Positions 24,737-61,554 of a stretch of 64,000 bases of DNA are shown here, piece by piece; within the stretch, counting starts at the first letter, position 1, and every line of letters begins with the position of its first letter. The stretch is taken from NCBI RefSeq assembly GCF_015709525.1, contig NZ_JADNRA010000035.1:62001-126000 (forward strand), given 5' to 3'. The position numbers and the translations under genes were made by a program. The notes beneath the pieces are model-generated. The model made no database searches. It was not told the DNA's origin and saw nothing but the letters and a program-made list of their open reading frames with translations. Source of the stretch: Methylocystis sp. L43. Lineage in GTDB: Bacteria > Pseudomonadota > Alphaproteobacteria > Rhizobiales > Beijerinckiaceae.

Positions 24737-27700
24737 TTACGAGCCTGCCCCGCTCCAGCGGCCGAGCGCGACAAGCTCGCGCAACGCCTGCGCGTCGCGC
24801 GGCGTCACGTCGGGATAATCAGGATCCGCCGTCGCGGGATCGAAATATTTCCACGAGCGGGCGCATTTGACGCCGGCCGCGCGTTGCGAAACGACGCCGA
24901 CGCCCGGCGCTTCCGGCAGGCGGAAGGCCTCGATCGGCGCTTCTCCCGGCAAGACGCGGATATCCGAGGCGATGCAGATTTCGGCGAAGTCGACGCCGTC
25001 GAGCCCGGCGCGCAACGACTCATCTTCTACATAAACGGTCGGCGCCGCTTCCAGCGAAGAGCCGATGCGTTTTTGCGCGCGCTCGATTTCAAGCGCGCCG
25101 GTGACGACCGAGCGGATCTTGCGAATCTTCTCCCATTTGGCGGCAAGCGCGTCGTCGCGCCACGCCTCGGGAATGGTGGGAAAATGCTCGAGATGCACGG
25201 ATTGCGCGTTCGGAAAGCGCGAAAGCCACGCCTCCTCCGCGGTGAAGACGAGAATCGGCGCGAGCCAGGTCGTGACGCTGCGGAAGATGCGATCGATGGT
25301 CGCGAGCGCCGCCTTGCGTTTGACGCTCGAGGGCGGATCGCAATAGAGCGCGTCCTTGCGCACGTCGAAATAGAAAGCCGACAGCTCGCTCGTCATGAAA
25401 TGGGTGAGCAGCGCGACGACGCGCTTGTAGTCATAGGCCGCATAGGACGCGCGGATCGACTCGTCGAGCTGATGCAGACGATGCAGCATGAGACGTTCAA
25501 GCTCTCCCGCCTCGCGCATCGCCGCATCGTCATTTGGCTGATAATGCGCCAGCGCGCCGATCATCCATCGCGTTGTGTTGCGCAGCTTGCGATAAAGCTC
25601 GACGAAAGTCTTGAGGATTTCGGGGCCAACGCGCAGATCGTCGGCGTAATCGGACGCGGCGACCCAGAGGCGCATGATGTCGGCGCCGGAATCGGCGATA
25701 ATTTTTTGCGGCGCGACGACATTGCCCAGCGACTTCGACATTTTGCGGCCCCGCTCGTCGAGCACGAAGCCATGCGTCAGCACGGAGTCGTAAGGCGCGC
25801 GGCCGCGCGTGCCGCAGCTTTCGAGAAGCGAGGAATGAAACCAGCCGCGATGCTGATCGGAGCCTTCAAGATACATGATCTCGTCTTCGCCGCCGTCGCG
25901 CTTGCGACGAATGCCCGCGAGCATCGGAAAATGCTGCGGATCTTCGAGCGTGAAGGCGTGGGTCGAGCCTGAATCGAACCAGACGTCGAGAACGTCGGAG
26001 ATTTTCTCGTAATCCTCCGCCTTGTAATCGGGCGAAAGAAAACGCTCGGCGGCCTTCGCTTCATACCAGGCGTCGGCGCCTTCCTTCTCAAAGGCCTCGA
26101 TGATGCGGGCGTTGACGCGCGCGTCGACAAGCGGCTCATGCGTGCCCTTCTTGACGAAGACGGCGATCGGCACGCCCCAGGCGCGCTGGCGCGACACGAC
26201 CCAATCGGGACGATTGGCGATCATGCCGCGAATGCGGTTTTCTCCGGCCGACGGCGTCCATTGCGTGCGGGCAATTTCCTCAAGCGCGATCTCGCGCAGC
26301 GTCGACGCGTTAGGGCGCGCACTTTCAATGCTCGCGCTATCCCTCCCCTCGACGGGGAGGGTCGCATCGCGAAGCGATGCGGGGTGGGGTGTGTCGTCTT
26401 GATCCCCCACCCGGCCGCCTTCGGCGGCCGACCTCCCCGCAAGGGGGAGGTAGGGCGCCGCGCCAAACGGCCGATCCATCGCGATGAACCCAGACGCGAT
26501 GGATTTATCCATCGCGATGAACCATTGCGGCGTGTTGCGGAAAATTACCGGCTTCTTCGAGCGCCATGAATGCGGATATTGATGCTTGAGCTTTCCGCGC
26601 GCGACGAGATTGCCGGCCTGAACGAGGGCGGCGATGACCGCCTCATTGGCGTCGCCCTTCTCGCCCTTGTCGGTGATGACGCGCTTGCCTTCAAAGCCCG
26701 GCGCGTCCTTCGTGTAGAAACCGTCCTCGTCGACCGTATAGGGAATGCGCGTCTCGACGCCGCGCGATTGCAGTTCGCGCGCGTTCGCCATCCAGATGTC
26801 GAAGTCCTCGCGGCCGTGGCCCGGCGCGGTATGCACGAAGCCCGTGCCCGTGTCGTCGGTGACATGTTCGCCGTCAAAGAGCGGCACGTCGAAATCATAG
26901 CCAAGATGCGCAAGCGGATGCGCGCAAACGAGTTCTAGAAGCTCATCAGTACTGACATCGCGAACGCGAGTGGATTTGCCCTTAGCTTTCGCGAATACGT
27001 CATCAGCGAGATTATCAGCCAGGATATATGCGTCGCCCTCCCGAGCGTTGCTGAATTCTGTTATTTCATCAAGGCGATACAATCCGTATGAAATCTTGCT
27101 CGAAAACGAAATCGCGCGGTTTCCAGGCAGCGTCCACGGTGTTGTGGTCCAAATGACGACTCGGACATTTTCGTAGCTCGGAAAATTTCCGGAAGAGACC
27201 TTGTCGAGTTCTCTAAGCGGCCGTAGCGGTGCTAATTCCCCGATCGCCCGAAATCCGCTGCGATGAGACGCGCCTTTGATCGGAAACGCCACCCAGACCT
27301 GGTCGCTCGTATAATCCTCATATTCGACTTCGGCTTCGGCGAGCGCGGTCTTTTCGACGACGCTCCACATCACCGGCTTCGAGCCGCGATAGAGCAGGCC
27401 GCTGGCGGCGAATTTCATGATCTCGCGCGCGATCGTCGCTTCCGCCGGAAAAGCCATCGTCGAATAGGGATGGCCCCAATCGCCGGCGACCCCTAAGCGC
27501 TTGAACTCCTCGCGCTGAACGCCGAGCCAATGTTCCGCATAGGCGCGGCATTCGCGCCGGAAGGCGATCATGGCGCCTGGATCGGTGAAATCGGGCTTCT
27601 GCTTGCCTTTGGCGCGGTAATTCTCCTCCTCGATCTTCCATTCGATGGGCAGACCGTGGCAATCCCAGCCCGGCACATAGACGCAGTCCTTGCCAGTCAT

Positions 27701-27970
27701 GCGCTGACTGCGCGTCACGAGATCCTTGAGGATCTTATTGAGCGCGTGGCCGATATGGATATTGCCGTTGGCGTAAGGCGGGCCGTCGTGGAGCGTGAAT
27801 TTCGGACGGCCTTCGCCCGATTCGCGCATTTTTTGCTCCAGGCCGATGGTCTCCCAGCGCTTGAGGATTTCCGGCTCGCGCTCCGGCAGGCCGGCGCGCA
27901 TCGGAAAATCCGTGACCGGCAGATAGAGGCTTTTGGAATAGTCAGGCCCTTTTGGGCTGTCGTCGTTCAT
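24737..27970 (-). CDS. ileS: Isoleucyl-tRNA synthetase with an in-frame repeat insertion
   Basis: The 1077-residue class I synthetase has the HIGH motif in [18 protein letters not shown], the editing domain, [15 protein letters not shown] and an anticodon-binding C-terminus. It is longer than usual. After [10 protein letters not shown] a short segment is duplicated (residues 484-494 resemble 495-505), then about 50 extra residues (about 506-555) precede [16 protein letters not shown], where the family sequence resumes. Residues about 507-543 are the translation of a REP-like palindrome (26341-26451). The reading frame is kept throughout and the other motifs are intact, so the enzyme should be functional. 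The insert would sit in the region joining the editing domain back to the catalytic core. Confidence 0.97.
26341..26451. repeat. REP-like palindromic element inside ileS
   Basis: It has the same architecture as the intergenic copy at 14989-15108: outer hairpins (CCCTCCCCTCGACGGGGAGGG; CCTCCCCGCAAGGGGGAGG), inner hairpins (GCATCGC-GAA-GCGATGC; CGGCCGCC-TTC-GGCGGCCG) and opposed GGGTGGGG / CCCCCACCC blocks. It is translated on the minus strand without a stop codon. Confidence 0.9.
26474..26523. repeat. 17-bp direct repeats (33-bp period) next to the ileS insertion
   Basis: ATCCATCGCGATGAACC occurs at 26474-26490 and again at 26507-26523. The 33-base period equals 11 codons and duplicates the FIAMD segment of the synthetase. 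Confidence 0.9.
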
Positions 27971-28220
27971 TGTCGTGAAAACCGGCTGGGGCGGGACGCA
28001 GGCGCCATAAGCGCCGCTATTGCGCGCTGATTAGAGGATTTGTGGAAAGAGCGCCAATCGCGCCGCGCCCGGACCCTGCGCGAGCCTTTAGCTCAGGAGC
28101 GCGCTGCGAAAAAAATGCAGCGTGATCTCGCGCAGGCCGGGCCGGTAATTCGAATGGCGGTCAGGAAAAGCATCTGGTCCTCAGTAGCAGCGCAGACCCA
28201 ACGGGAAAAGAGGCCAGGTC

Positions 28221-60630: not shown

Positions 60631-61554
60631 GTGGTCGACACGCTGCCGCCTTTGCGAGACGTCGTCGCCCGTTACGGGCTCGACGCAAGAAAATCGCTTG
60701 GACAGAATTTTCTGTTCGATCTCAATCTCACCGCGCGCATCGCCCGCGCCGCCGGACCTTTCGATGACACGATCATTGTCGAAATCGGCCCGGGTCCCGG
60801 CGGGCTGACGCGCGCGCTGCTCGAGCAAGGCGCGCGACTGATCGCCGTCGAACGCGATCCTCGCTGTCTGCCAGCGCTTGAAGAGATCGCGGCGCATTAT
60901 CCAGGCCGGCTGACGATCATCGAAGGCGATGCGCTGGAGATGGACGTCGCCGCGCTCGTGCGGACACACGCGCCTGTCATTCCGGACGCGGATAACAACG
61001 CCATTGCTCTGGACTCCCGATCAGGCCTTCGGCCTGTCGGGAATGACAACCGAGTTTCTGCGCGCATCTGCGCCAACCTTCCGTATAACGTCGCCACGGC
61101 GCTGCTGACGAGGTGGATCGCAGCGGAACCCTGGCCCTCGGTCTTCGACCGGTATGTGCTGATGTTTCAAAGAGAGGTCGCGCTGCGCATCGTCGCGACG
61201 CCGAAAGAGCGCGCCGATTATGGTCGGCTCGCTGTGCTGTGTGGCTGGCGCGCGAAGGCGCGCATTCTTTTCGATGTGTCGCCCGCCGCTTTCACGCCGC
61301 CGCCGAAAGTGACCTCTTCCGTCATTGAGCTGACGCCAAATCCGAAGCCGCTTCACTGCGATCCGCGCGCATTGTCGCGCGTCACGCAAGCCGCCTTCGG
61401 ACAGCGCCGCAAAATGTTGCGGCAAAGTTTGAAGTCGCTTGGCGTCGACGCCTCGGCGCTGCTCGAGGCGGCCAAAATAGACGAAACCAAGCGGGCGGAA
61501 GAAATCGACGTCGCCGGTTTCGTCGCTCTGGCCAACGCGCTTTCGGCTCAGTAA
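60631..61554 (+). CDS. rsmA: 16S rRNA dimethyladenosine transferase RsmA (KsgA) with an in-frame insertion
   Basis: The 307-residue enzyme dimethylates A1518 and A1519 of 16S rRNA. It has [18 protein letters not shown], the SAM motif [19 protein letters not shown] and the catalytic [12 protein letters not shown]. Between the acidic SAM-binding segment ([13 protein letters not shown]) and NLPYN there are about 25 extra residues. Residues 116-139 are the exact translation of a 72-bp palindromic repeat (60976-61047). The motifs on both sides are intact. The GTG start follows pdxA with no gap. Confidence 0.96.
60976..61047. repeat. 72-bp palindromic element inside rsmA
   Basis: The ends GTCATTCC and GGAATGAC are inverted, and a hairpin CCCGATCAGGCC-TTC-GGCCTGTCGGG fills the right half. 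Its length is exactly 24 codons and no stop occurs in the rsmA frame. Confidence 0.88.

Follow-up and report, generated by a model that had tools for sequence, protein, structure and literature searches.

Introduction

CGTC REPs are described by Di Nocera et al. 2013 as elements with a tag, an 8-9 bp stem starting with AT, a 4-5 nt loop and a CCA tail, which occur mostly as HH dimers with the tags outward and without an associated transposase (PMC3733652). The same paper reports intragenic copies in many genes, in frame in conserved ones including tRNA synthetases, and a CGTC REP that struck recB of two Xanthomonas at about the same site; it also notes odd loops in Bradyrhizobium CGTC-1 and classes the Rickettsia palindromic elements (RPE) RPE-4 and RPE-6 as CGTC REPs (PMC3733652). 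That repeats colonise protein-coding sequence as a general process has already been published, both from Rickettsia and with REPs of the CGTC and GTAG types (PMC3733652, PMC10969869, PMC2229807). The main text of the CGTC REP paper contains no word starting with "methylo", and the available text of the Methylocystis SC2 genome paper mentions palindromes only for CRISPR and oriC (PMC3794950). Within a literature coverage that leaves out most subscription journals, we found no work on rsmA/ksgA inserts, Methylocystis repeats or same-site insertion beyond the REP and RPE papers cited here.

We analysed a stretch of 64,000 nucleotides of Methylocystis DNA, called the window below, in which part of rsmA consists of repeat DNA that is translated. 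Our data indicate that this insert is a non-autonomous REP-type repeat carried as an in-frame passenger in a tolerant loop of RsmA, an explanation that we hold, as a whole, with a probability of roughly 0.82. The repeat families are named A to E in the present analysis; the genome that contains the window is G000, and its relatives are G001 and so on.

Results

A shortened repeat copy encodes a loop of RsmA

The host gene is intact and has a single match in its genome. The NCBIfam model TIGR00755 (ksgA) matches rsmA with 224.9 bits against a cut-off of 171 (E 1e-66), the best Foldseek matches of the RsmA model are KsgA and TFB1M structures, and the NLPYN motif is invariant among 46 aligned RsmA proteins. 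The features of the locus are as follows.

60631..61554, forward strand: rsmA (ksgA), 307 codons, the host gene (open reading frame, NCBIfam TIGR00755, Foldseek)
60975..61048, forward strand: family A element (TGTC...GACA), 74 nt, an internally deleted CGTC-REP-like inverted dimer that encodes the loop before NLPYN
60975..60990, forward strand: left-hairpin remnant, with a deletion scar at its right end where 36 nt are missing relative to the 110-nt form (compared with G004, G023 and G012)
60991..61005, forward strand: residual inter-hairpin spacer (comparison with full copies)
61013..61044, forward strand: right hairpin, with outer arms ACTCCCGA/TCGGGAAT (one mismatch), a bulged T, a 6-bp inner stem and a 3-nt loop
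61075..61089, forward strand: residues 149-153 (NLPYN motif), part of the core strand after the loop

The sequence-only reading had described a 72-bp palindromic element at 60976-61047. We found that this interval indeed covers exactly RsmA codons 116-139, ahead of NLPYN at residues 149-153, that it is in frame and free of stop codons, and that it has the inverted ends GTCATTCC/GGAATGAC. The internal hairpin, which had been called perfect, is present with one bulged base, and its perfect part is only 6 bp with a 3-nt loop. The repeat unit proved not to be 72 bp long; the window holds instead a shortened copy of a double hairpin of approximately 107-110 nt (TGTCATTCC...GGAATGACA). Similarly, a length of exactly 24 codons is correct for 60976-61047 and hinges on the choice of ends, because the window loop is 25-26 codons longer than that of relatives without an insert (129 vs 54 or 51 nt). 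The longer copies of family A among those listed (97-110 nt), which have the ends TGTCATTCCCG...CGGGAATGACA, consist of two hairpins separated by a spacer, the right hairpin being an inverted relative of the left one. The strand of the insert with its flanks (60960-61060) folds at -39.8 kcal/mol (z -3.71), and 2 of 200 dinucleotide shuffles fold equally well or better. An Rfam search of 60900-61120 gave no match at E up to 1.

Family A is dispersed in the genome and in part of the genus

A BLAST search of G000 with an 86-nt query gave 32 rows, including the query locus, and a covariance model of the full element gave 54 rows, counting both strands. After merging by hand, family A occupies 32 places in this genome, rsmA included, with a 20-nt match at C35:354251 left out. 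These dispersed copies establish that the rsmA segment is a genuine repeat. Ten of them align over all 110 columns with the rsmA inserts of eight relatives, and by eye the dispersed copies have conserved arms and diverged spacers. We found family A in 13 of 19 other genomes of the genus (E up to 1e-6), including all six that carry it in rsmA, with only two rows in G009. The six genomes that lack it (G010, G020, G031, G003, G007 and G024) are all empty at the rsmA site. Among the plasmids of PLSDB, family A occurs in only two records, both from Methylocystis iwaonis, and a family C query gave no plasmid match.

Two insertion-sequence ends adjoin family A hairpins at ends of the G000 contigs C3, C34, C6, C9, C5, C4, C14, C33 and C30, and also at L007 (1-400) and L014 (1-520). 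Five contig ends carry the first end, joined to AATCCAGAGC, and four carry the second, joined to CCCGATC. In the second, Pfam recognises an IS110-family transposase domain (PF02371, E 2e-22); in the first it gives no match, but this end resembles an IS110 start by eye. We infer that both belong to one IS110 element that uses the target GGATT^CCCGATC. IS elements that target REPs are already known (PMC1525189).

The rsmA loop is filled, shortened or empty across the genus

From 37 genomes of the genus, two of which (G008 and G027) gave no rsmA match, we obtained 35 loops between GDA and RICANLPYN. Family A is present in 14 (G000, G005, G018, G004, G023, G014, G021, G006, G001, G035, G012, G032, G016 and G028), of which the copy in G028 runs off a contig end and 13 are read through. 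Family B fills three loops (G029, G036 and G002), a B remnant is found in G030 and a B-like variant in G009. Another 14 loops are empty, with 51 or 54 nt, and two are ambiguous (75 nt in G034 and 69 nt in G011). The empty loops identify the repeat copy in rsmA as an insertion. Both flanking motifs lie in one frame in all 34 loops that are read through. Among 110 rsmA loci that were read, some of them two records of one genome, those with titles unlike Methylocystis have 74-81 residues in the segment and no such insert.

The family A elements in rsmA are 110, 107, 104, 101 or 74 nt long and those of family B 78 nt. The window copy, with 74 nt, compares with 101-110 nt in 10 relatives; the short form is found in three of the 13 inserts read through (G000, G005 and G016), with an identical deletion junction, and the right hairpin is damaged in G018 and G006. 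In G009 the net gain equals the length of the element (132-54=78), hence there is no target duplication there. The family A inserts have 1-4 extra nt beyond the element, which are assignable to neither side.

Exchange of rsmA alleles may explain part of the patchy distribution

On a tree of pdxA and rsmA with the loop removed (41 rows), A, B, B-like and empty states are interleaved and need at least six changes (39 of the 41 rows, with G034 and G011 dropped). The sisters G035 and G036, which join with 100/100 support, carry A and B, respectively. Rather than many insertions, one insertion per family followed by exchange of rsmA segments between species might have produced this pattern, and we give such a history slightly less than even odds. 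The 74-nt form, with its single junction, is shared by G000 and by G005/G016, which are not its sisters on the tree; the tree groups G000 with G023/G004 (branch 94/96). Despite that placement, the 162 nt just upstream of the insert are 96% identical between G000 and G005/G016, vs 91% between G000 and G023 or G004. Since this identity conflicts with the tree, part of the A/B/empty pattern is probably the product of recombination. By eye, the spacers of most A copies are alike. Furthermore, the B copies in rsmA resemble one another (G036 is 91% identical to G029 and 88% to G002); among the matches listed, dispersed B copies of nearly full length reach 87%, and a single partial one reaches 89%. 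The greater likeness of the G036 copy to other rsmA copies suggests that some seemingly independent insertions may be transferred alleles.

Exchange does not account for everything, however. Neither of the families A and B can be derived from the other, which leaves a minimum of two arrivals, and the sisters G035 and G036 are 90-93% identical around the site with only a small dip, to 86% over 91 nt just after it. Given the signs of recombination and the likeness among the rsmA B copies, the sole count that we hold certain from sequence comparison is that unrelated families reached the same rsmA loop at least twice.

A second loop, in IleS, holds several families

The window contains a second gene with a translated palindromic repeat.

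24737..28030, reverse strand: ileS, a frame open over 1097 codons with the true start inside it (TIGR00392, E 7e-230 on the part in L141)
26325..26470 (approximate), reverse strand: family C palindromic insert in ileS (inverted repeats, dispersed family, loop comparison)

The repeat in ileS belongs to a family different from that in rsmA, as the sequence-only reading had proposed. We compared 30 IleS loci and sorted their inserts by eye. Family C of the window type is found in the loop of seven genomes, a C-like element in another frame in G012, G021 and G004, and another C-like element in G007. The loop of G014 holds family D, with a similar peptide in G037 (from another family of the order); G011, G017 and G020 hold family E and G010 a short piece. 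The loop of G002 has 53 residues and may contain a remnant. Short loops have 37 residues (G003, G013, G015, G019 and G008) or 41 (G022). When the 19 longer loops were folded, z was -3.4 to -8.4 in 15, and -2.9, -2.1, -1.4 and 0.6 in G002, G020, G010 and the outgroup G048, respectively. Family E is dispersed in all four genomes searched, and family D in three of four, being absent from G000. The loop states require at least ten changes on a tree of 22 rows, with C counted in three versions and the remnant as a state of its own. The IleS loop is thus occupied by at least three unrelated families (C, D and E).

We considered whether these loops are true insertion hot spots, at which the REP machinery prefers a DNA target beyond the mere survival of tolerated inserts. 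Measured from the same GDA codons, the left junction follows after 41 nt in A, 40 nt in B and 37 nt in the B-like variant, and ileS was likewise struck at one loop, both of which would be expected of a preferred target. The tolerant loop of RsmA is only approximately 18 nt wide, however, so that a coincidence within a few bases is unsurprising, and a shared target motif or duplication was not seen. The A and B junctions, one base apart, also differ in codon phase, and therefore neither family is a simple swap of the other. Taken together, a hot spot seems clearly unlikely.

In-gene copies are few in the window genome

Frames open through the element were sought in the flanks of 32 family A, 10 family B and 36 family C places (merged by hand), with the three longest kept per place. 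Among the frames listed, at least 12 have at least 100 residues before the element and at least 55 after it. We scanned 10 of the 11 frames other than rsmA against NCBIfam, with L163 left out: in ileS and cobN the family match encloses a family C element, in valS such an element lies upstream of the conserved start, and seven frames have no match. The element in cobN (cobaltochelatase subunit), at L147 (G000:C32:106871-107020), is an in-frame family C palindromic repeat. By eye, a glyS-like frame at L215 (G000:C32, about 245.7-247.1 kb) contains two or three family C pieces. A recognised gene around the element is shown only for rsmA among the 32 family A places and for none of the 10 family B places, four of which have long open frames that gave no family match in the NCBIfam scan. 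In-gene copies shown in this genome are therefore few. The proposal of a general colonisation of protein-coding sequence in this genome holds to the extent that rsmA, ileS, cobN and the glyS-like frame (by eye) are affected; commonness is not supported, with one of 32 places shown for family A and none of 10 for family B. A further candidate within the window, LRAEGE in RibF, was judged native by eye.

The hairpin arm is more conserved than silent sites

Ten full family A copies in rsmA were compared, giving 45 pairs that are not independent. The left arm (40 nt; alignment A3, columns 1-40) has no difference in seven of the 45 species pairs. In six of them (G035-G012, G023-G012, G023-G035, G001-G032, G006-G012 and G006-G035) the fourfold sites of rsmA are 28-38% different, and the seventh pair, G006-G023, has 13%. 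Between the two arm subtypes, 3-10 of the 40 positions are different. The rates over the 45 non-independent pairs are 0.108 for the left arm, 0.145 for the right arm, 0.323 for the spacer and 0.262 for fourfold sites. The arms are thus far more conserved between species than silent sites, which speaks against the passenger reading in that simple neutral decay predicts otherwise. Protein constraint fails to explain the conserved arm because the spacer is free; conversion, short-tract exchange or selection on the nucleic acid remain.

Selection could mean that the hairpin is kept for an RNA or DNA role in rsmA, such as translation pausing, mRNA stability or protein binding. Identical left arms beside a drifting spacer point in this direction, and it is paired changes that separate the two arm subtypes. 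Covariation scores 0.115, vs 0.077 for shuffles, none of 500 of which scores as high. Nine cells are changed on both sides of a pair, where shuffling gives 4.5 on average and again none of 500 reaches the observed value; kinship inflates both scores. No excess is seen, however, in how many pairs have such two-sided changes (4 vs 3.2; 188 of 500 shuffles as high) or in how many pair types occur (8 vs 9.4; 497 of 500). Moreover, the window lineage deleted its left hairpin, which speaks against a strong need for the arm, the right one is damaged in G018 and G006, and other genomes hold B or nothing. Dispersed family A copies, too, keep their arms beside diverged spacers (by eye), and Rfam gave no match. 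We regard an RNA or DNA role as very unlikely.

That the many dispersed copies of a genome homogenise its rsmA arm is poorly supported, because in G023 the arm pattern (at most one mismatch) was found in rsmA and otherwise in a single copy, which is of the other subtype. Arm-to-arm correction by template switching was set aside by reasoning, as it would be expected to give compensatory changes but not lower divergence. The left-arm pattern (at most one mismatch) was found 51 times in G002, 72 times in G030 and 86 times in G061, at most four times in the other 36 genomes searched and not at all in G000; the matches listed for G030 and G061 are mostly GCTCGCG.AGCGAGC.

A bolder reading would be that certain protein loops are recurrent docking sites, where DNA cassettes from unrelated palindrome families insert, are exchanged and are renewed by ongoing conversion or re-insertion. 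We consider it rather unlikely; if true, the arm that stays identical between species, with silent sites of the gene about a third diverged, would mean that conversion or re-insertion keeps acting on a palindrome inside the coding sequence of an essential gene.

The insert falls in a predicted disordered loop

AlphaFold2 modelled RsmA (46 sequences) with a normal KsgA fold (mean pLDDT 87.8, pTM 0.84). The insert falls in a predicted disordered loop, residues 118-140 (pLDDT <50), between the helix 106-113 and the strand 143-149. For the insert together with the last few loop codons, five chosen pairs give a summed pN/pS of 0.76, vs 0.13 in the rest of rsmA, on the basis of few changes (18 synonymous, 37 not). 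Because of the predicted disorder and the relaxed constraint, the insert looks tolerated rather than selected as protein, and it may well be neutral for enzyme function. The mitochondrial homologue TFB1M, in its murine form, has additional residues at this loop in the alignment, and therefore this place tolerates length.

That the RsmA loop is native and slightly long, with a palindrome that arose by chance or codon bias, has almost no chance of being correct: loop length is somewhat variable among the alphaproteobacterial RsmA read, and TFB1M has its extra residues, but the DNA matches a dispersed, mostly intergenic family whose copies already refute such an origin, the fold has a z of -3.71, 14 of 35 genomes are empty, and the dispersed copies together with the fold statistics rule out a chance palindrome.

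Discussion

Our data are best explained by a REP-type passenger. Family A appears to be an inverted dimer, with the tags outward, of a CGTC-REP-like hairpin that is mostly intergenic and present in one part of Methylocystis. A copy would have entered rsmA of an ancestor at the flexible loop between the helix and the NLPYN strand. Since neither a transposase nor a target duplication was found, the insertion step and its enzyme are matters that we infer. The copy would have survived through a frame that was open by chance and through the tolerance of the loop for extra disordered residues. The insert would then drift as a protein passenger, undergoing in-frame deletions (110 to 74 nt in the window lineage) or loss, and recombination appears to carry its alleles from one species to another. 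In other lineages, family B and the B-like variant would each have taken this rsmA loop separately, and families C, D and E would have taken the IleS loop.

One genus thus offers a natural series in which the loop is empty, filled by A, shortened, filled by B or nearly cleared, with a second loop in ileS, so that tolerated palindromes can be tested against site-directed or DNA-maintained ones in culturable methanotrophs. Annotators should be aware that a conserved enzyme can contain 20-40 residues that are encoded by repeat DNA. More generally, the case shows how selfish hairpin DNA can become part of working proteins.

Relation to known systems

The predicted hairpins of family A fit the CGTC-tagged REP dimers except for loop size. 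An unpaired TGTC lies outermost in family A and CGTC in family B, corresponding to the tag; the stem of family A (ATTCCCGA/TCGGGAAT) has 8 bp and starts with complementary AT; GGGAATCCAG at the inner ends corresponds to the CCA tail; and full-length copies are double hairpins with the tags outside, as in HH dimers. Where CGTC REPs have a loop of 4-5 nt, an inner stem of 6-7 bp with a 3-nt loop is found in family A. Alphaproteobacterial hosts are common to both. By description, RPE are also similar, being approximately 100-150 bp long and in frame in conserved protein genes (PMC10969869, PMC2229807); here, in contrast, the host is a methanotroph with a 4-Mb genome and few in-gene copies. Family A shares with BIME/REP moved by RAYT the form of short dispersed hairpins in inverted pairs. 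A Y1_Tnp (PF01797) profile search of G000 found no such gene, the same search being positive in 5 of 14 control genomes, and this result speaks against a RAYT transposase as the mover.

The kind of element is therefore known. What stands out here, besides the conserved arm, is how clearly unrelated families have occupied the same loops again and again: compared with the CGTC REPs of Di Nocera et al. 2013, same-loop occupation extends across a genus, in which the loop may be filled, shortened, filled by another family or empty.
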